From assembly GCA_018715725.1 (NCBI GenBank), contig DVLD01000056.1, forward strand, positions 1 to 33,413: DNA of 33,413 bases, read 5' to 3'. The translations under genes were made by a program, and so were the position numbers. Below the pieces are notes generated by a model that saw only the letters and a list, made by a program, of their open reading frames with translations, made no database searches and had not been told where the DNA came from. Source of the DNA: Candidatus Aveggerthella excrementigallinarum (GTDB lineage Bacteria; Actinomycetota; Coriobacteriia; Coriobacteriales; Eggerthellaceae). Shown here in pieces: positions 18,062-27,431 of the stretch (positions are counted from its first letter, which is position 1; each line of letters begins with the position of its first letter).

Positions 18062-19693
18062 TTACCGACGCTGCTCGTCGACGGCGCCCTCGACCATGTC
18101 CAGCAGTTCCTGGCGCGTGTGCACGCCAAGCTTCGCGTACACGTTCTTGATATGGGTCTTCGCGGTGTTGACGGAGATGCCCAACTCCTCGTGGACGTAC
18201 TCGATCGAACGGCCTTTCGCCAGCAGGAACAGGACATCCCTCTCGCGCGTGGAGAGTCCGCCGTCATCGGCGATGAGGTTGCACGCGCGCGTCCAGGCGC
18301 CCTGCGGCCGCGATGCGGCGTCGCCCTCGTCAGACGCGCCGGCACCTTCGACCATGCTATCCGGGAAGATGCTGCCGAACGCGTCCGCCTCGGCTCGCTC
18401 GAGACCGTTCGCCTGGCGCAGCACGCGGCCGATCGCACGGTCGTTGAACACGAGCATGACCACAATGAGCAGGACGAACACCATCACGATCGAGACCGCG
18501 ACGATGACCGTTGGGTTGTCGCCCGTCTGCTCGAGCAGCATCGAGCCCAGCACCCACCCCAACGTCGTGCCGGCAGCGGAGGCACCGCGGCCCCAGCCGA
18601 ACACGCGCACAGGCGACAAGCTGGTCATGTAGGACACGTGCGCGCACAAGCACCAGATGACCATGACGAACAGCGCGTACGCCACGCCGATGACCTGTCC
18701 TTCGAACGCGCCCGTGCTCGCCCCGCCCGTGGCGGACGAGACGACCGGCGTGACCAACACGCCGCCCGACACCAGAATCGTCGCCGGATAGTACAGCTTC
18801 GAAACGTCAAAATCGCGCATGAGCATGCCGGCGACCAGGAAGAGGATAGCGGCGATGCACGCCGTCACCGCCACGATGATCACGCCTTTCGCGCTCAGGA
18901 CGTCAACGCCGCCCGACAACGTCGAGTAACCGCGCGTCACTCCCACGACCACGGCGAACACCGCGACCGCCAGCACGAACCGCGCGAAGAACCCGTGCGG
19001 CAGCGACCCGGTCGGACGGCGGTCGGACCGCGCAGCGTCCGTGCGCGCAAGCGTGGCGACGGAGCACAGCGCCGCCATCGTCGGCAAGAACGCCGCAAAG
19101 ACAATGCCCGCAAGCTCGGGCAAGCCCACGGCAACGAAGTACAGCATGCCGGCGAACACGAACGACGCCGCAGTGTACATGAGCGCCTGGCGCGCCGGCA
19201 CCGTGCCGTACACCATGCCAAGGCGCAGCGCGATCCATGCAGTCCCGACGCCCGTCAGGGCCGAGAAGACCGCGAAGGCGGGACCCTCCCCGCCGAAGAC
19301 CACGCCCACCGTGCTCACGGTGGCGAGCACTCCCGCAGCGAACACGATGAAGGAACGGCGCAGAATGGTCTCGACCTTGGAAGCGAACAACGACGAGACG
19401 ATGAACACGAGCGCAAGGGCTGTCGTCGAGAGCAAGTACATGTCGAACACGCTGTACGCAGCCTGGTCCTGCATCCAATCGGGCACAAGAACCTCGCTGT
19501 CGTAGCACAGCCAAATCCACGCGTAGTAGCAACCAAAGCCAAGGAACTTCAGGCTCGGCCACTGCTCGTCAATGTCCGCGAACAGCGTCGACATCGAAAG
19601 CCACGGGCGCTTCCCCTCCGCTCCTACAGCCGTGACCGCCTTCTCCTCGGACGATCGAGAAAGCGTGCTTGTTTCGTTTCGTCTTGCGTCCAT
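18062..19693 (-). CDS. Membrane-bound LuxR-family regulator with multi-helix N-terminal domain
   Basis: 543 residues. After a short polar N-terminus, residues from about 45 to 430 are almost wholly hydrophobic, with about 12 predicted helices. The tail is a LuxR helix-turn-helix (LSTRERDVLFLLAKGRSIEYVHEELGIS, then VNTAKTHIKNVYAKLGVHTRQELLDM). The arrangement, a transporter-like sensor fused to a LuxR output, is characteristic of Eggerthellaceae, where these genes often lie next to molybdoenzyme clusters. ATG 19693 has GGAGG upstream, and a -10 box lies at 19725-19720; the track start at 19720 would overlap the box. It is the last gene on the left of the oxidoreductase cluster, in its own transcription unit and on the same strand. 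The sensed ligand is unknown; the natural guess is the substrate of the neighbouring enzyme. Confidence 0.88.
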   Translation of the reverse strand: MDARRNETSTLSRSSEEKAVTAVGAEGKRPWLSMSTLFADIDEQWPSLKFLGFGCYYAWIWLCYDSEVLVPDWMQDQAAYSVFDMYLLSTTALALVFIVSSLFASKVETILRRSFIVFAAGVLATVSTVGVVFGGEGPAFAVFSALTGVGTAWIALRLGMVYGTVPARQALMYTAASFVFAGMLYFVAVGLPELAGIVFAAFLPTMAALCSVATLARTDAARSDRRPTGSLPHGFFARFVLAVAVFAVVVGVTRGYSTLSGGVDVLSAKGVIIVAVTACIAAILFLVAGMLMRDFDVSKLYYPATILVSGGVLVTPVVSSATGGASTGAFEGQVIGVAYALFVMVIWCLCAHVSYMTSLSPVRVFGWGRGASAAGTTLGWVLGSMLLEQTGDNPTVIVAVSIVMVFVLLIVVMLVFNDRAIGRVLRQANGLERAEADAFGSIFPDSMVEGAGASDEGDAASRPQGAWTRACNLIADDGGLSTRERDVLFLLAKGRSIEYVHEELGISVNTAKTHIKNVYAKLGVHTRQELLDMVEGAVDEQRR

Positions 19694-19719
19694 GGCCCCT
19701 CCTCGGAAGGGCGCGCACA

Positions 19720-19725
19720 TCTATA
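19720..19725 (-). promoter_or_regulatory. -10 box (GCTATAGAT) of the luxR gene
   Basis: The minus strand reads CCGCGCTATAGATGTG, 26 bases upstream of the start codon, giving a short leader. Confidence 0.5.
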
Positions 19726-19761: not shown

Positions 19762-20757
19762 CTACTTTACCTGTTTTTCACTGTGCTCCTGAGAACGAAA
19801 TCCACCGTTCAACAATGGAAAACTGATAGCGTGCGCTGGGCACTTGTCCGCGCACGCGCGGCATTTCGTGCATTCAGAGAGCGGCGCGGAGACCGTCCCG
19901 TCGTGCAGATCGATGCCCTCTTCGCACACCTCCGCACACTTGTGGCACGCCTCGCCGTTCTCACGCAGGCACGTCGTCGTGTCGACGCGCGGACGGAACG
20001 TGCGGTTTAGGCGCGCGATCAGCGAGAACAGCGCGCCGAGCGGGCAAAACCGGTGGCACCACTTGCGCAGCACGACGATCTCCAACAGCAGCAACGCCGG
20101 AAACACGATCAAGGATAGCGTCGCTTCGTTGAACTGGAACAGCCTCCAGAGCACAATAATCGTGCCGAACGTGAGGCCAACCGGGCAGATTAGGCAGAAG
20201 ACCGGGAAGCCGAACAGCGCGGTCGAAAGAATCGTGCCGCCCAGGACCCAGTTGCGGGAATCATGAATCCCGCCGCGTAGCTTGCGCGGGATTCCCAGCG
20301 CGCCCTGTTCGATCATCTCACCTGGATGCAAGCGGGCTTCAGCCTCCTCGGCTGCCACCTCTTCAAGCTCCTTGAGCGCCTTCTCGCGCTCTTCGCCCTC
20401 GACGCGCGCCGCGCGCTTACCCAGCTTGCGCTCCCGCTCCGCTCGCTTCTCCTGCGGAGACTTCAAGCCCAGGACGCGACGAAGCAGCGGGATGGGGCAG
20501 CCCCACGCGCAGAACGCGCGTCCGAACACGATGGTGAGGACAACGACGATGGCAGCGCCCAGCAGCATGGGCGGGACGATCGTGCGCGATGCGATGGCCG
20601 CCTCGACGGCACCGAGCGGGCAGAGCGCGGCGATGTCGGCGATGCCCCACGAGGACGGGGTGCCGAAGCCGGTGTGGATGGCCAGCCCCAGGCACACGAG
20701 TGCGATGACCGCGACCGCGCTCAACGTGCGAAGCAGCGTAGACGACGGCTTTTTCAT
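19762..20757 (-). CDS. NapH-like membrane ferredoxin
   Basis: 331 residues. Membrane helices lie at about 10-28, 60-80, 165-190 and 205-235. The NapH-type cysteine motifs are FCAWGCPIPLL, FCLICPVG and HRFCPLGAL, and two [4Fe-4S] sites follow near the C-terminus (CHKCAEVC and CTKCRACADKCP). Between helices 2 and 3 is a charged segment rich in Glu, Arg and Lys (about 120-150), probably a coiled coil. NapH proteins take electrons from menaquinol and hand them to NapG-type partners at the outer face. It starts one base after the stop of the NapG-like gene. No nap nitrate reductase is nearby, so the pair probably serves the adjacent molybdoenzyme or its maturation. Confidence 0.85.
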   Translation of the reverse strand: MKKPSSTLLRTLSAVAVIALVCLGLAIHTGFGTPSSWGIADIAALCPLGAVEAAIASRTIVPPMLLGAAIVVVLTIVFGRAFCAWGCPIPLLRRVLGLKSPQEKRAERERKLGKRAARVEGEEREKALKELEEVAAEEAEARLHPGEMIEQGALGIPRKLRGGIHDSRNWVLGGTILSTALFGFPVFCLICPVGLTFGTIIVLWRLFQFNEATLSLIVFPALLLLEIVVLRKWCHRFCPLGALFSLIARLNRTFRPRVDTTTCLRENGEACHKCAEVCEEGIDLHDGTVSAPLSECTKCRACADKCPAHAISFPLLNGGFRSQEHSEKQVK

Positions 20758-20758
20758 G

Positions 20759-21385
20759 TCACATCAACTCGCTTTCGGTCGAGACCGTCGTGCGCGAAAG
20801 GCGGTCGTACACCGCGGGAGACACGACCTCGATGCCGCGGTGCATGCCGCCGACGAACGAGCGGTACACGAGCGCCGGGCATTCGTCGACGCACAGGCCG
20901 CACCCATTGCACGCGTCGGCATTGACCTGCGGATGGCCCGCCCCGTCAAGCGAGATGGCCTCGTACGGGCAGACCTCGGCACACCGGTCGCACCCGCCGT
21001 AGTACGCGACGCACCGATCTTCGATGACGACCGCGACGCCGATCTTCTCGCGCGTCTCGTCGAACGGGCGAATGGCGCCCGTCATGCAGACTTCCGCGCA
21101 CTTGTCGCAGAAATCGCAGTAGCCTTTGTGAAAGTCAAGAATGGGCGTGCGCGCGTTCACCAGCCCGTCTTCGACATGTCCGACGGCGATCACGCCGGTC
21201 GGGCACACGGAGCGGCACCGATCGCAGCGCACGCAAGTGCTTAGCAGGTGCGCCTCGTCCTGAGCGCCCGGCGGGCGCAGCAACTCGTCGGAGGAACCGA
21301 GAACGCGGACTCCCCCGCCGATTCCAGCGCACGCGACAACGCTCGCGCACGCGCCAATGAACGTTCTGCGCGTCAAGTCAGCCAT
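20759..21385 (-). CDS. NapG-like Tat-exported ferredoxin (four [4Fe-4S] sites)
   Basis: 208 residues, with a Tat signal at the N-terminus (MADLTRRTFIGACASVVACAG). Four cysteine groups follow: CVRCDRCRSVCP, CDFCDKCAEVC, CDRCAEVCP with an upstream Cys (CVAYYGGC), and CNGCGLCVDECP. This is the layout of NapG/MauM-type proteins that carry electrons outside the membrane. The start at 21385 has GGAGAGG upstream. It follows the TorD gene by 85 bases that contain a GGCGAGCGCTCGCC palindrome. The protein likely forms an electron route with the NapH-like protein, in addition to the DmsBC route, or feeds a common acceptor. Confidence 0.87.
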   Translation of the reverse strand: MADLTRRTFIGACASVVACAGIGGGVRVLGSSDELLRPPGAQDEAHLLSTCVRCDRCRSVCPTGVIAVGHVEDGLVNARTPILDFHKGYCDFCDKCAEVCMTGAIRPFDETREKIGVAVVIEDRCVAYYGGCDRCAEVCPYEAISLDGAGHPQVNADACNGCGLCVDECPALVYRSFVGGMHRGIEVVSPAVYDRLSRTTVSTESELM

Positions 21386-21470: not shown

Positions 21471-22145
21471 CTACTCCCGCGCGTACGCCGCCAGGTCGTC
21501 CACGACCTCGCGGTCGAGCGCCAGGAAGCCGCGCGTCAAGCTCGCCACGCCGCGGTAGAAGTCGGTGCGGGCATGCTCGTCGATCGCCTGCGTGAACGTG
21601 GGAATCCAGTTCTCCAGATGCTCCGCAAGAAAGCGGTCCTGCACGCCGACCAGGCGAGCGAACTCTGCGTCGTCGCCTTCGTCGATCGCCTCGACCGCAC
21701 GGTCGATCAAGCGCGCCATGAATTGCATCTCGAACGACACGTGGTCCTCGGGCGTGGTGTTGTCGGCGGGAAGGTCGATCCCCTCGGCGCGGTAGAACGC
21801 GACCGCACCGTCGCGCGCCTCCTGCATGAGCAGGTGCTGCTCGCTCGTGAAGACCGACTCGTACGGCGGCGCCATGACCGTGTCGTACATGCCCGCGCTC
21901 AGGAACGTGTGGGCGTAGTCGACCGCCAGCTCCTGTCGCGTACCTGCGTCACGGTGCCGCAGGTATTCCTTGATGGTTGCGTACCCCTGCGCGATCTCGG
22001 AGTCGTCCTGCGGGAACTCTTGCGTCGCCAGCGTTTCAATCTGCTCGACGGTCAATTCCGTGAAATAGACGCTCGCCAGGAAGCGGTAGAACGTGGCGCG
22101 TGCTTCGCTCGATTCGCGCACGTCCTGTTTCATTGCTTCGTCCAT
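21471..22145 (-). CDS. TorD/DmsD-like molybdoenzyme chaperone
   Basis: 224 residues, all helical in appearance. The motif LAVDYAHTFLSAG...APPYESVF matches the TorD-family signature (YxxLF, then PYES/V). The C-terminal EHLENWIPTF is also typical (E-x2-H-x4-P). TorD proteins bind the Tat signal of a specific molybdoenzyme and hold it until the cofactor is inserted. ATG 22145 has GGAGACC upstream; the track start at 22361 overlaps the hairpin region and the end of the dmsC-like gene. The partner is almost certainly the DmsA-like protein encoded in the same cluster. Confidence 0.88.
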   Translation of the reverse strand: MDEAMKQDVRESSEARATFYRFLASVYFTELTVEQIETLATQEFPQDDSEIAQGYATIKEYLRHRDAGTRQELAVDYAHTFLSAGMYDTVMAPPYESVFTSEQHLLMQEARDGAVAFYRAEGIDLPADNTTPEDHVSFEMQFMARLIDRAVEAIDEGDDAEFARLVGVQDRFLAEHLENWIPTFTQAIDEHARTDFYRGVASLTRGFLALDREVVDDLAAYARE

Positions 22146-22350: not shown

Positions 22351-23163
22351 TTAGAGGGCAACCCCGAACAGGGACATCAGGGCCGAGCCTACAAGCCACA
22401 TGACGCAGCGCAGGCCAATCGACCCGATGAGGGCGCCCACCACGGCGATGGCGCCGTAGGTCAGGCCAGAAGCGGGCTTCTTGCTCGCCAGGTAGCCGAA
22501 CACAATCGGCGCGACGCCGCCACAGACGACGACCGCCAGCCAGAAGATAGCAGCCTGGTCGCCGAAGGCGACGTTGCCGGCAACGCCGTAGACGACGCCG
22601 AGCACCAGGGCGAGCACGCCACCCGCGGTGGCGAGCAGGCCAGCGAAGGAGATCGCCTCATCGCTCTCCTTCAGAGCAGCGCACAGCACCAGGTAGAGCG
22701 CCGTGCCGCTGGCAGCGGCAGTGCCCAGGTACGCGAGCGGAAGCGTGACGGTGTCCCACATGGCGTGGGAGGACATCATGTAGGACGCGCCGCAGGCGAA
22801 GGTCAGCGCGATGGCGGCGATGATGCCGAGGACCGCGAAGACCTTGCGGGCTCCAGCAGACGCCTCGCGCTTCACCAGGATCGCGTAAACGATCGCGACG
22901 ACGGCGAGGATGCCCAGGAGCAGCGCCTCCAGGAAGATGCCCGCGGTGGGATGGCCGAGGGCTGCCAGCATGCGCTCAGGATGCGAAAGGTGCGTCACAG
23001 AGCAGATGCCGCCGACTGCCAGCAGGACCACCGCCAGGATAGCGGCAGGGAACGCCGTCTTTTTCGTCGTGCCCTTGAGCTCATCGATGGCGGCGCTAGC
23101 AAACAGCCACGCACCGGCACCGGAGAGCACCGTGAACAGAACGAGTGACCATTGGATCTCCAT
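22351..23163 (-). CDS. dmsC: DmsC-like membrane anchor
   Basis: 270 residues with eight predicted membrane helices and the opening MEIQWSLVLFTVLSGAGAWL characteristic of DmsC. DmsC-type subunits oxidise menaquinol in the membrane and pass two electrons to the iron-sulfur subunit. The segment HLSHPERMLAALGHPTAGIFLEALLLG is the conserved second-helix region, HPxR included. The start overlaps the end of the dmsB gene, with stop TAA followed directly by ATG; GGAG lies nine bases upstream. As in E. coli, order dmsA-dmsB-dmsC is kept. Confidence 0.9.
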   Translation of the reverse strand: MEIQWSLVLFTVLSGAGAWLFASAAIDELKGTTKKTAFPAAILAVVLLAVGGICSVTHLSHPERMLAALGHPTAGIFLEALLLGILAVVAIVYAILVKREASAGARKVFAVLGIIAAIALTFACGASYMMSSHAMWDTVTLPLAYLGTAAASGTALYLVLCAALKESDEAISFAGLLATAGGVLALVLGVVYGVAGNVAFGDQAAIFWLAVVVCGGVAPIVFGYLASKKPASGLTYGAIAVVGALIGSIGLRCVMWLVGSALMSLFGVAL

Positions 23164-23748
23164 TTAGATGCGCTCCTTCCATTCGCCATGCTTCGGGGAC
23201 CAGATGTAATGGGTCGCCGGATGGTTCCCCACGTCCTCGAGCGTGTGGATCGCGTCAGCGTCGTAGCGCGCGAGCTCCTTGGACACGTCGGAATCCGGGT
23301 CGTCCAAGTCGCCGTAGAAGCGCGCGCCAGCGGCGCAGCTCTTCACGCACGCGGGCAGCTCGCCCTGCGCGGTCAGGTGGCCGCACAGCGTGCACTTCTC
23401 GACCGTCTTGGTCTCGGCGTTCCAATTGCGGACGCCGTACGGGCACGCCATCATGCAGTACTTGCAGCCGATGCACTTCTCGCGGTCGACGAGCACGATG
23501 TTGGTCTCGGGGTCGCGGTAGCTCGCGCCGGTCGGGCACACGTGGACGCACGGGGCGTCCTCGCACTGCTGGCACATGGACGGCACCTTGTAGCGCGTGA
23601 TGTCCGGGTAGTCGCCGATCGGTCCGACCTCGACGACCTTGTTCCAGTACTCACCCAGCGCGATGTCGTTCTCCATCTTGCAGGCGACCTCGCAGCCGTA
23701 GCAGCCAGTGCAGCGGTCGAGGTTCACGACGATGCAATTACGCGCCAT
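23164..23748 (-). CDS. dmsB: DmsB-like four-cluster ferredoxin subunit
   Basis: 194 residues with four [4Fe-4S] motifs: CTGCYGCEVACK, CQQCEDAPCVHVCP, CIGCKYCMMACPYG and CTLCGHLTAQGELPACVKSC. That arrangement identifies the electron-transfer subunit of DMSO reductase-family enzymes. It has no signal peptide, so it would be exported by riding on the Tat-directed catalytic subunit. The start lies 10 bases inside the 3' end of the dmsA-like gene, so the two are translationally coupled. Confidence 0.93.
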   Translation of the reverse strand: MARNCIVVNLDRCTGCYGCEVACKMENDIALGEYWNKVVEVGPIGDYPDITRYKVPSMCQQCEDAPCVHVCPTGASYRDPETNIVLVDREKCIGCKYCMMACPYGVRNWNAETKTVEKCTLCGHLTAQGELPACVKSCAAGARFYGDLDDPDSDVSKELARYDADAIHTLEDVGNHPATHYIWSPKHGEWKERI

Positions 23749-26476
23749 AATCGAACACCTCCTCGGTAGGATCGGAGGGCGTCGGCAGCCACGGAGTGAA
23801 GTCCTCGGGCTTCATCCAGGTACCTTCCGGCGCGCCTTCGGGGCACGGGTAGACCTTGACCGTGAAGCCGCGGAGCGTGTAGGTGCCGTACTCCGGGTTG
23901 TACGGGGCGTCGGTCTTGCTCAGGACGTTGTAGTTCATGGCCGTGTAGGCGAGCTTCGGGTCGTCGCTGTTCAGGAACTCAGGATTCCAGAAACGCTCCT
24001 GGTACAGGACGCCCTCCGGGATGGCAGTCGTGACCTTCGCCAGGCCGCGCGTCTTGGCGCGGCGGGACTCGATCCACGTCCACGTGCCGTCCTCGATGCC
24101 GTACTTCTCGGCATCCGCGGGGTTGATCCACAGCTCGGGCACGGGATAGATCTCGCGCAGCCACGGGACGTTGCGCAGCGTGCCATGGTGGTACATGGGC
24201 AGGCGGCCGTTCGTGATGACGAGCGGGAAGTCGGGGTCGTAGCCCTCGGCGCCCTCGATCGGGGACTCCGCCGGCTCCACGTAGTAGCAGAGCGGCTCGT
24301 AGTCGGCGCTGGCGGGCGGAACCTCGAAGTGCTCCTCTTCGGCGCACTTCGCCCACGGATAGCCCGTGCGGCCCAGGATGGTGTTGGACTCGGCGTAGAT
24401 CTCGAGCTTCTTAGACGGCGTGCCGAAGCCCTTCGGCTTGCCGGTCTTCTCGTCGATCTTCTTGTAGACCTCGTAGGTGCGGTACTCGTCGACGGAGCAC
24501 CACTCCATGACGCCCTTCTCGCAGAGCTCGTCCCACGTGATGCCGGACGTGCCCATGTGCTGCTTCTGCTTCTCGTACTCGTTCTTATAGAGCACGTGTC
24601 CGAAGGTCGCTTCCGGGTCGAAGGCGCGGGCGGCGGCTTCGTTGCCCAGCTCGGCGCACTTCTGGACGATGTTCGTCCAGATGATGCCCTCTTCCACCGT
24701 CTCGAACAGGTGGGTGACCGCCTGGCGGACGACGACGGTGTTGAGCTGCGGGATGGGCAGGTTCGTCTCCAGCCACTCCGTGCACGGCAGCGCGTAGTCG
24801 GCGTACATGCGGGTGAAGGCCGTCGGGTACATGTAGATGTGGACGATGCAGTCGACGTTCGGCGTGACCTCGTCAAGCTGCAGGGCGTTGCCAAGCACTG
24901 CGTGCTTGTTGCCGGAACGGTCGAACCACATGTGAATCTGGTACGGGTCGCCGTCCTTCATCATGGTCATGACATCGGGGATGAAGCACATATCCCAGTC
25001 CATGAGGCCCTTGTGCTCGATGTAGCCCGCACGCCTCATGACCTTTTCCTTAGACAGCAGGCGCGGGGTATTGCCCAGCTGGTCCTTGACGGGGCAGCCC
25101 TTGAAGTTCTGCAGCATGGTACCGGGTTTCTCGACGTTGCCCATGAGGAATTCCAGGGCAAGGGCAGCCAGCGCGCACTGCTGGGACTGCGGGTACTGGT
25201 CGATCGGCACGCCCTGCATGATGCCGGACTGGCCCTCGGGGTCGGTGTAGATCTCGAGCGCCTTCACGATCTGGTCGGCGTCCAACCAGCAGACCTCGGC
25301 GGCCTTCTCGACGGTCCACTCCTCGCAGGACTGCTTGAGCAGCTCACCGCCGGTGGAGCACTGCATGCCGTTGACCTCGTAGGTGCCGAACAGCGCCGGG
25401 TCGACGCCTTCGTTCATGGGATAGTCCACAACGACGGGCTGGTTGGTCTTGGAGTCCCACACCACGTAGTCCTTGTCGGTACCTTCAAGTCCAGCCTCCG
25501 TCGCCTTGAGCGTCAGGCGCGTCTCCGGGTTGATCAGGTACGGCATGTTCGTCCAGGTCTTGCAGAACTCGGCGTCATATCGCTCGTTCTCGATGATCCA
25601 GTGCTCCCATGCCAGAAGCAGCGCGGCGTCGGTGCCCGGGCGGATGGGCAGCCACACGTCGGCCTTGGACGCGTCCAAGGTCATGCGCGGGTCGATGACC
25701 ACCGTCTTGAGGCCCTGCTCGCGAGCACGCAGCTCCGCCAGCGCGCGACCGCCGGTCGCGACGGAGGAGTTGGACGGGTCGGTGCCCCACAGCACCAGGC
25801 TCGTCACCGGCGTGTCGTCGAAGTAGTAGTCCCAACCGTTGGAGTCCGCGAAGGACAGGTTGTTCGGCTTGCCGGCGCCGTAGACCAGCTGCGAGGCGGC
25901 CATGCGGGGCAGATAGCACTGGGCGCAACCGGGCTCCCACACGTTCGGCGTGTTGATGGACTCGCCGAACCACTTCACGTTAGAGAAGTGTGGGTTGCCG
26001 CCGCCGCCCGTGGACACCGTGATGGCCTCGGAACCGTACTTGTCGGAAATCTCGTTGATCTTGGTCGCGATATCCGTGATGGCCTCGTCCCAGGAGATGC
26101 GCTCCCAGTCGTTGCCACCGCGCTCGCCCACGCGACGCAAGGGATACTGCAGGCGGTTCGGGTTGTAGAGCGCCTGGATGCCGGCAAGACCCTTGGCGCA
26201 CACGCCGCCCATGCTCATGGGACTCTCCGGATTGCCCTCGATCTTGATGACGCGACCGTTCTGGACGTGCGCCAGGACAGCGCATGCCGCGATGCACGCA
26301 CGGCACGAGGTCTTGACGATCTTGACGTCGTTGCTCTCGGCAGCGCGGGCGGGATCAGCCTTCACAAAGCAGTCCGTCGCCGCGATGCCGGAAGCGGCAA
26401 CCGCACCACACAACGCCGACGCCTTCACGAAGCTACGGCGCGACATGGTCGCGGATGCCTGGCTCGCTGTTGCCAT
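23738..26476 (-). CDS. dmsA: Tat-exported molybdopterin oxidoreductase catalytic subunit, DmsA-like, substrate unknown
   Basis: 912 residues after choosing ATG 26476 (AAAGGAGGG upstream); the track start adds 17. A Tat signal is clear (MSRRSFVKASALCGAVAAS). Four cysteines (Cys58, 61, 65 and 93, in SCRACIAAC and GGVCAKG) form the N-terminal [4Fe-4S] site. Molybdopterin-binding landmarks include VLWGTDPSNSS and VIDPRMTLDASKADVWLPIRPGTDAAL; the C-terminal domain starts at LVITNGRLPMYHHGT. In the segment where E. coli DmsA has its ligand serine, this protein reads VWEPGCAQCYLPRMAAS; by spacing against formate dehydrogenase, Cys187 (or Cys184) would be the ligand. Cys-type enzymes act on substrates such as nitrate, sulfur compounds, acetylene or catechols, so the dms symbol names a relative, not a substrate. 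It is coupled to dmsB. Confidence 0.92.
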   Translation of the reverse strand: MATASQASATMSRRSFVKASALCGAVAASGIAATDCFVKADPARAAESNDVKIVKTSCRACIAACAVLAHVQNGRVIKIEGNPESPMSMGGVCAKGLAGIQALYNPNRLQYPLRRVGERGGNDWERISWDEAITDIATKINEISDKYGSEAITVSTGGGGNPHFSNVKWFGESINTPNVWEPGCAQCYLPRMAASQLVYGAGKPNNLSFADSNGWDYYFDDTPVTSLVLWGTDPSNSSVATGGRALAELRAREQGLKTVVIDPRMTLDASKADVWLPIRPGTDAALLLAWEHWIIENERYDAEFCKTWTNMPYLINPETRLTLKATEAGLEGTDKDYVVWDSKTNQPVVVDYPMNEGVDPALFGTYEVNGMQCSTGGELLKQSCEEWTVEKAAEVCWLDADQIVKALEIYTDPEGQSGIMQGVPIDQYPQSQQCALAALALEFLMGNVEKPGTMLQNFKGCPVKDQLGNTPRLLSKEKVMRRAGYIEHKGLMDWDMCFIPDVMTMMKDGDPYQIHMWFDRSGNKHAVLGNALQLDEVTPNVDCIVHIYMYPTAFTRMYADYALPCTEWLETNLPIPQLNTVVVRQAVTHLFETVEEGIIWTNIVQKCAELGNEAAARAFDPEATFGHVLYKNEYEKQKQHMGTSGITWDELCEKGVMEWCSVDEYRTYEVYKKIDEKTGKPKGFGTPSKKLEIYAESNTILGRTGYPWAKCAEEEHFEVPPASADYEPLCYYVEPAESPIEGAEGYDPDFPLVITNGRLPMYHHGTLRNVPWLREIYPVPELWINPADAEKYGIEDGTWTWIESRRAKTRGLAKVTTAIPEGVLYQERFWNPEFLNSDDPKLAYTAMNYNVLSKTDAPYNPEYGTYTLRGFTVKVYPCPEGAPEGTWMKPEDFTPWLPTPSDPTEEVFDYGA

Positions 26477-26543: not shown

Positions 26544-26598
26544 TAGTGACCGAAGTAAAACGACGCGCGACCGTGCGCGGCCGCGCCGCCCAGCGGGC

Positions 26599-27222
26599 TT
26601 ACGCGCCCGCCCTCCGCAGGAAGCGCAGTCCTGCATCCGTGGTCTTCCAGCAGCCCTCCCACTCAAGGCCGCCTGCCGCTTCGAGCTTCGAGACGAAATA
26701 CTCGGGATAGACGCTCTTTCCGTCGGCCTCGACCTTGCCGCCAAGCGCCTCGTTCACGTCGGAGAGCTTTGCGCCCTGTTCACACGCACGCAGCGTCTCC
26801 TTAATGGCGGCCGTGAACTCCGCGGGCTCGGACGCGCACAGCGCGTCAATCATCTTCGCGGGCTCGAGCGACGCGAGCACCGTCTGGCCTGCCGGGGTGG
26901 TCTTGAGCGTCCAGTCCGTCGGCTGATCCTCGGAATCGAGGTTGGATTCATCAGCGGTTTCCGCGGACTCCTCTTCCACTGCGGTACGCTCGATGCCGCC
27001 CGCCTCGACGAGCAGGTTGATGAGCACGTGCGGCGTCTGCAGGCTGGTTTTCATAACCGTCAACGACTCAAGACCGGCTTCGATGTCGCGGTACGGCGCC
27101 TCCTCCAGACACGCGCGCAGACACGCGCACATGGGCAGCGTGTTCGCACGCGTCTTGCGCACGCACGCCATGACTCGCTCCACCGCCTCGGTGGAGCGGT
27201 CGGTCGTTTCGATAGAAGTCAT
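26599..27222 (-). CDS. Protein of unknown function with two similar halves, first gene of the oxidoreductase operon
   Basis: 207 residues, no signal peptide or membrane segment. Two halves resemble each other: TPHVLINLLVEAGGIE...WTLKTTPAGQTVL in the first and YPEYFVSKLEAAGGLE...CWKTTDAGLRFL in the second, each preceded by an Arg/Ala/Cys-containing helix (ACLRACLEE; ETLRACEQG). The repeated pattern of helix, strand-like LEAAGGLE and TTxAG looks like a duplicated winged-helix domain, which would suggest DNA or protein binding, but I do not recognise the family. An acidic linker (EEESAETADESNLDSEDQ) separates the halves. The start has G7 as its Shine-Dalgarno, next to A8. Its position before dmsA suggests a regulatory or assembly role. 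Confidence 0.8.
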   Translation of the reverse strand: MTSIETTDRSTEAVERVMACVRKTRANTLPMCACLRACLEEAPYRDIEAGLESLTVMKTSLQTPHVLINLLVEAGGIERTAVEEESAETADESNLDSEDQPTDWTLKTTPAGQTVLASLEPAKMIDALCASEPAEFTAAIKETLRACEQGAKLSDVNEALGGKVEADGKSVYPEYFVSKLEAAGGLEWEGCWKTTDAGLRFLRRAGA

Positions 27223-27404: not shown

Positions 27405-27431
27405 ATAAAAGAAGGCCTGCGAACAGGCCTT
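27405..27431 (-). terminator. Rho-independent terminator after the small coiled-coil gene
   Basis: AAGGCCTG and CAGGCCTT form an 8-bp stem around 4 bases, just past the stop of the gene at 27432. The minus strand then reads CTTTTATG; the plus strand also has TTTT after the stem, so it may work both ways. It separates the PHP/NUDIX genes from the oxidoreductase cluster. Confidence 0.8.

Follow-up and report, generated by a model that had tools for sequence, protein, structure and literature searches.

An Operon for a Predicted Exported MopB Reductase with Two Conserved Cysteines in its Ligand Loop, from Candidatus Aveggerthella excrementigallinarum and its Relatives

The window analyzed for the current report, a stretch of 33,413 nucleotides from the genome of Candidatus Aveggerthella excrementigallinarum, contains eight genes that lie together on the minus strand in the order E-A-B-C-TorD-NapG-NapH-LuxR, the TorD, NapG and NapH genes being referred to below as F, G and H. 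These genes, and the elements within and around them that are discussed here, are listed by their positions in the window.

27412..27431, minus strand: terminator-like hairpin upstream of gene E (consensus scan only)
26599..27222, minus strand: gene E, 207 aa, fold unassigned, a probable DadhE homologue (accessory protein), from a profile match at the E. lenta dadh locus and from synteny
23738..26476, minus strand: gene A, catalytic bis-MGD subunit of 912 aa, a MopB protein predicted to be Tat-exported
26336..26476, minus strand: twin-arginine signal peptide of gene A with SRRSFVK, residues about 1-47, read from the sequence (R13, R14 and F16 invariant in a 28-row alignment)
26198..26305, minus strand: [4Fe-4S] motif of gene A, C58-x2-C61-x3-C65...C93 (invariant in the 28-row alignment; PF04879)
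25904..25936, minus strand: ligand-loop signature of gene A, E181-P-G-C184-A-Q-C187-Y-L-P-R191, in the context VWEPGC184AQC187YLPR
25925..25927, minus strand: Cys184, the second cysteine, three residues before Cys187, invariant in its clade and absent from the other paralogs examined
25916..25918, minus strand: Cys187, predicted Mo/W ligand, aligned with the ligand cysteines of PsrA, acetylene hydratase and three formate dehydrogenases
23164..23748, minus strand: gene B, four-cluster ferredoxin electron-transfer subunit of the ArrB/NrfC/TtrB/DmsB type (Pfam, NCBIfam)
22351..23163, minus strand: gene C, membrane anchor of the DmsC family (PF04976, hydropathy, synteny)
21471..22145, minus strand: gene F, TorD-like chaperone (PF02613), with a likely start at 22145, the methionine at which homology begins
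20759..21385, minus strand: gene G, NapF/NapG-like ferredoxin with a Tat-like signal (Pfam, NCBIfam, synteny)
19762..20757, minus strand: gene H, NapH-like membrane ferredoxin (Pfam, NCBIfam, synteny, hydropathy)
18062..19720, minus strand: regulator of the 12-TM LuxR type (GerE domain PF00196, hydrophobic N-terminal part, synteny)

The gene A translation (26476-23738, minus) begins with MATASQASATMSRRSFVK, and its ATG is preceded by AAGGAGGGAGT; a plus-strand reading of 23738-26476 was rejected, the long ORF there being only a GC-rich antisense frame. The protein contains PF04879, PF00384 and PF01568, and thereby the Fe4S4, molybdopterin and dinucleotide-binding domains of the MopB/bis-MGD superfamily. 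Gene B overlaps the end of gene A, the gene E protein has no match in Pfam or NCBIfam, and the count of about 12 TM segments in the LuxR regulator comes from crude hydropathy only. The hairpin at 27431-27412 is a probable upstream limit of the transcription unit and fits an operon that starts at E. A GC-rich hairpin with a T-rich run between genes E and A (26565-26586, minus), by consensus match only, is a possible attenuator. Searches of the window for Rfam families and for tRNA genes gave no matches.

The gene order E-A-B-C-F-G-H-LuxR recurs in about 18 genomes, in which the A proteins are 72-99% and the B proteins 74-99% identical and in which gene E occupies the same position at nearly all loci; the exceptions are few, such as one genome in which E was not found and loci at contig ends. 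Close orthologues of gene A (70% or more identity) occur in about 20 of the 140 genomes of the family, distributed over about nine genera, and, outside the family, in one genome of the same order (L140). No neighbor beyond the eight genes is consistently conserved in the flanks of the syntenic loci, so that an attempt to infer the substrate from neighboring genes was dropped. In another genome of the set (G002, locus L124), three operons that have homologues of E and A follow one another in a tandem array of no more than 20 kb, which suggests that the clade diversifies by duplication, as the catechol dehydroxylases do. The genome that bears the window (G000; 2.03 Mb, 87% complete) yielded 34 matches to the gene A protein and has clearly more than a dozen genes for MopB reductases, several of them on very short contigs and two with in-frame TGA codons (possible selenocysteine formate dehydrogenases).

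A first-pass annotation of this DNA had placed two cysteines, Cys184 and Cys187, in the segment presumed to bear the metal ligand, and EPGCAQCYLPR is indeed read at 25904-25936 (minus). In a phmmer search of the PDB, the best matches to the gene A protein were PsrA/PhsA of Thermus (2vpw, E 3e-46) and the acetylene hydratase (AH) of Pelobacter acetylenicus (2e7z, E 1.2e-43). Cys187 falls on the ligand cysteine in five of five pairwise alignments, namely on Cys173 of PsrA and Cys141 of acetylene hydratase, the metal ligands in these two structures, and on the ligand cysteines of three formate dehydrogenases; opposite Cys184 there is a serine in PsrA and a methionine in acetylene hydratase. Since all five alignments put Cys187 on the known ligand, Cys184 was rejected for this role, and Cys187 is predicted from the aligned sequences to be the sole candidate protein ligand of the pair. 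The earlier claim that a cysteine occupies the ligand position is thus borne out, and alignments of the kind that had been proposed as a check assign the ligand column to Cys187 and not to Cys184. Cysteine ligation is ordinary on this side of the MopB superfamily, where it is found in PsrA, PhsA, acetylene hydratase, NapA, TtrA and ArrA, as against the serine of DorA, TorA and DmsA (PMC10100899) or the aspartate that replaces serine in haloarchaea (PMC10100899, Table 1). A literature search for the residues that precede the ligand in ArrA yielded nothing usable.

Membership in the same superfamily as DmsA, DorA and TorA, together with the DmsB-like and DmsC-like partners and the TorD-like chaperone, might invite the view that the enzyme reduces DMSO, TMAO or another S-oxide despite its cysteine, but we regard this as highly improbable. 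The gene A protein has Cys187 in the column where DMSO reductases have serine (or aspartate), and it scores 217.8 with the DmsA model TIGR02166, well under the cut-off of 777.7. In a tree built from 79 N-terminal regions, it belongs to a 30-member clade (100/99) on the cysteine-ligand side, apart from the group of Ser-type DMSO reductases. Moreover, the same genome already has a separate Ser-type MopB gene that reads GDYSAAQ around the ligand position (C176, L068:9077-11494, minus strand), whose product has TMAO reductase (1.2e-74) and DMSO reductase (7.7e-69) as its best PDB matches and groups with DMSO reductase in the tree (98/88). The fold of an AF2 model of the gene A protein (pLDDT 81.7, pTM 0.86) is matched best by acetylene hydratase (E 3.6e-40, TMt 0.82), then by perchlorate reductase, ArrA and PsrA, and there is no DMSO or TMAO reductase among its best 50 fold matches. 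The alignment of Cys187 with the ligand cysteines of solved structures and the presence of a true Ser-type paralog elsewhere in the genome therefore support the classification of the protein as a cysteine-ligated enzyme other than a DMSO reductase. The first-pass annotation had warned that automatic labeling as a DMSO reductase would probably be wrong; such a label would indeed probably misname the protein, given its ligand and its place in the tree, and a curated annotation, in view of the TIGR02166 score, probably would not say DmsA.

The second cysteine is as strictly conserved as the first. Every one of the 28 aligned sequences has EPGC[AS]QC[YF]LPR, and with it both cysteines, the relatives among them ranging in identity to the window protein from 42% to 99%, and the only invariant cysteines of this alignment are the four Fe-S cysteines, Cys184 and Cys187. 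Of 397 genomes of the phylum, 9 had a match to a degenerate nucleotide pattern encoding the motif, as compared with none among the genomes listed for a reversed control pattern, and these counts, together with the invariance, argue that the motif is real and not a product of chance. The paralogs examined, whether of the catechol dehydroxylase type, the Ser type or another, lack Cys184. Its invariance in the clade makes the question raised earlier of a second role for the two cysteines a legitimate one. They might form a redox pair (as a disulfide or persulfide) with a switching or catalytic function, in which case Cys184 would not be structural; its standing as the sole invariant cysteine outside the cofactor sites and the location of residues 184-187 within one short helical turn of the AF2 model are consistent with this idea. 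Two of the aligned formate dehydrogenases, however, have a cysteine four residues before the ligand (HCARLC and NCARIC), so that a neighboring cysteine may be merely structural, and we consider the redox pair unlikely. It concerns mechanism only and is compatible with the assignment of the operon to a terminal reductase that is set out below.

The motif extends beyond the operon, since EPGCAQCFIPR occurs in two genomes of other actinobacterial families (L134 and L135), and for this reason an initial view that the clade is confined to Coriobacteriia was withdrawn. The proteins concerned are AH-like MopB proteins of about 700 aa that share the motif with the window protein but differ in their shorter open frames, in the other metabolic genes that flank them and in that the B-C-F-G-H operon was not seen beside them. 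At the loci L144 and L145, short AH-like EPGCAQCFIPR proteins are encoded beside genes that resemble, by eye, those for acyl-CoA dehydrogenases and for reductases of the old-yellow-enzyme type. Plasmid homologues were uninformative: the two that were checked have the ligand cysteine without the second cysteine and are only about 25% identical. Unassigned cysteine-using lineages with AH-like, PsrA-like and DmsA-like matches have been noted before (PMC10100899), and the EPGCxQC clade may be among them. A bolder proposal is that the clade constitutes an unrecognized class of gut respiratory molybdoenzymes with a chemistry of its own, in which Cys184 would be catalytic (by donating a proton, carrying a persulfide or forming a reversible disulfide with Cys187) and the substrate a widespread diet- or host-derived compound; we offer it as a speculation that is decidedly unlikely to hold in full.

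The two enzymes that head the sequence and fold comparisons also differ from the window system. In acetylene hydratase, Asp13, next to the second Fe-S cysteine, is catalytic. Its counterpart in the gene A protein is Ile62, with isoleucine in at least 90% of the relatives, and acetylene hydratase is cytoplasmic and not a respiratory complex; the likeness between the two lies in the fold and in the alignment of Cys187 with Cys141. PsrA/PhsA shares with the window system the ligand cysteine (Cys173) and an exported three-subunit complex, and one could suppose on this basis that the operon encodes a sulfur-oxyanion or polysulfide reductase acting on polysulfide, thiosulfate or tetrathionate, the more so because the Thermus protein is the best single PDB match and the PhsA model NF012032 the best NCBIfam match. 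The score with that model is 238 against a cut-off of 694, however, the anchor is of the DmsC type (PF04976), PsrA has serine opposite Cys184 and is not placed inside the clade by the tree, and the NapGH and membrane LuxR genes resemble those of clusters for the reduction of organic acceptors, all of which make a PsrA/PhsA-type activity improbable.

The closest parallels to the operon as a whole are with the catechol dehydroxylases of Eggerthella. One genome of our set is presumably that of E. lenta DSM 2243, in which the gene A orthologue lies at 3.210 Mb, and we take its gene at 604 kb, which has serine at residue 506 and a divergent LuxR gene, to be dadh. Ser506 has been reported in the Dadh of this strain (PMC9734109). 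A profile of gene E orthologues finds a match at 610 kb (E 3.8e-14, in a cut ORF), next to dadh and beside TorD and NapG homologues, and a second match at 631 kb (1.1e-30); homologues of E, TorD, NapG and NapH adjoin dadh with their order kept. Between two pieces of the NapH homologue at about 612-613 kb lies an IS110-family transposase gene (L137:2266-3504), and since it splits that homologue, dadhH looks interrupted in this E. lenta strain, which does not metabolize dopamine. Dadh expressed in a heterologous host depends for its activity on DadR, the regulator, and on accessory genes D to H of the dadh cluster (PMC11887054), and 12-TM LuxR proteins such as DadR, HcdR and CadR respond to substrate by activating dadh, hcdh and cadh (PMC9734109).

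With Dadh, Hcdh, Cadh, eCadh and Vadh (PMC7028382, PMC11887054), the window system has in common a Tat-exported bis-MGD subunit with the Fe-S motif and a cysteine in the ligand column, the B and C subunits, accessory genes of the E, TorD, NapG and NapH types and a hydrophobic LuxR regulator with about 12 TM segments by crude hydropathy. It differs in that its LuxR gene is the last of the operon and on the same strand, that no counterpart of the helicase gene dadhD was seen in it, and that its A protein, 32-36% identical to the E. lenta paralogs of this type, has EPGCxQC[YF]LPR where they have [IV]CKGPR. The catechol dehydroxylase-type paralogs in the tree (n = 14, including the Dadh candidate) all have [IV]CKGPR, with its cysteine in the ligand column, and form a clade of their own (100/100) that leaves the window protein outside. 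Opposite Cys184 they have W (in the dadh candidate) or Y, S or N, and this variable residue, three before the ligand, might line the substrate pocket. The one such paralog that was searched against the PDB had acetylene hydratase as its best match (1.3e-59). Orthology to a characterized E. lenta enzyme was therefore rejected, and by sequence the window protein is a relative and not a member of the group. It could still be a genuine Eggerthella-type catechol dehydroxylase for a catechol that has yet to be tried, as the agreement in subunits, accessory genes and kind of regulator (PMC11887054) would allow, and as would a fold like those of acetylene hydratase and PsrA; in view of the motif and the tree we think this doubtful, though it is the likeliest of the alternatives.

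The reading that we prefer, with a probability of roughly 0.7, is that the product of the operon is an Eggerthella-type terminal reductase with bis-MGD, exported by the Tat route and anchored to the membrane, which is induced through the LuxR protein and acts on a small molecule. It is supported by the sequence and family of the A protein, the alignment of Cys187, the invariance of the motif, the synteny of the operon and the presence of homologues of E, F, G and H at the dadh cluster of E. lenta. From these observations we infer the metal, the direction of the reaction, the electron path and the class of substrate. Subunit A would contain a proximal [4Fe-4S] cluster and bis-MGD, the latter with molybdenum (possibly tungsten) to which Cys187 is the protein ligand. 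Menaquinol would be oxidized via the DmsC-like anchor (C) and/or the NapG- and NapH-like ferredoxins (G and H), from which electrons might travel by way of the four B clusters and then the A cluster to Mo(IV). The latter would then take oxygen or hydroxyl from a specific organic small molecule, or cleave a similar polar bond, and the molecule, reduced outside of the cytoplasmic membrane, would thereby serve as a respiratory acceptor. Ahead of its export, A is expected to be matured by TorD (F) and protein E, and the membrane LuxR protein presumably senses the substrate and turns on the operon. Reductive removal of an oxygen function is most likely the chemistry involved, by analogy; for reductive dehydroxylation in particular, an analogy is what the 32-36% identity to the E. 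lenta paralogs and the lack of CKGPR allow.

For the annotation of such genes, the CxxC at the metal ligand provides a simple mark that separates this group from both the DMSO reductases and the catechol dehydroxylases. The invariant second cysteine and the conserved, uncharacterized operon are the parts of the finding that are most worth keeping, and the effect of a second thiol beside the metal is directly accessible by mutagenesis. Eggerthella and its relatives process many diet- and host-derived molecules with reductases of this kind, most of them without a known substrate. Unlike the patchy, substrate-specific catechol dehydroxylases, the operon described here is alike across about nine genera, and its substrate may therefore be common in the gut.
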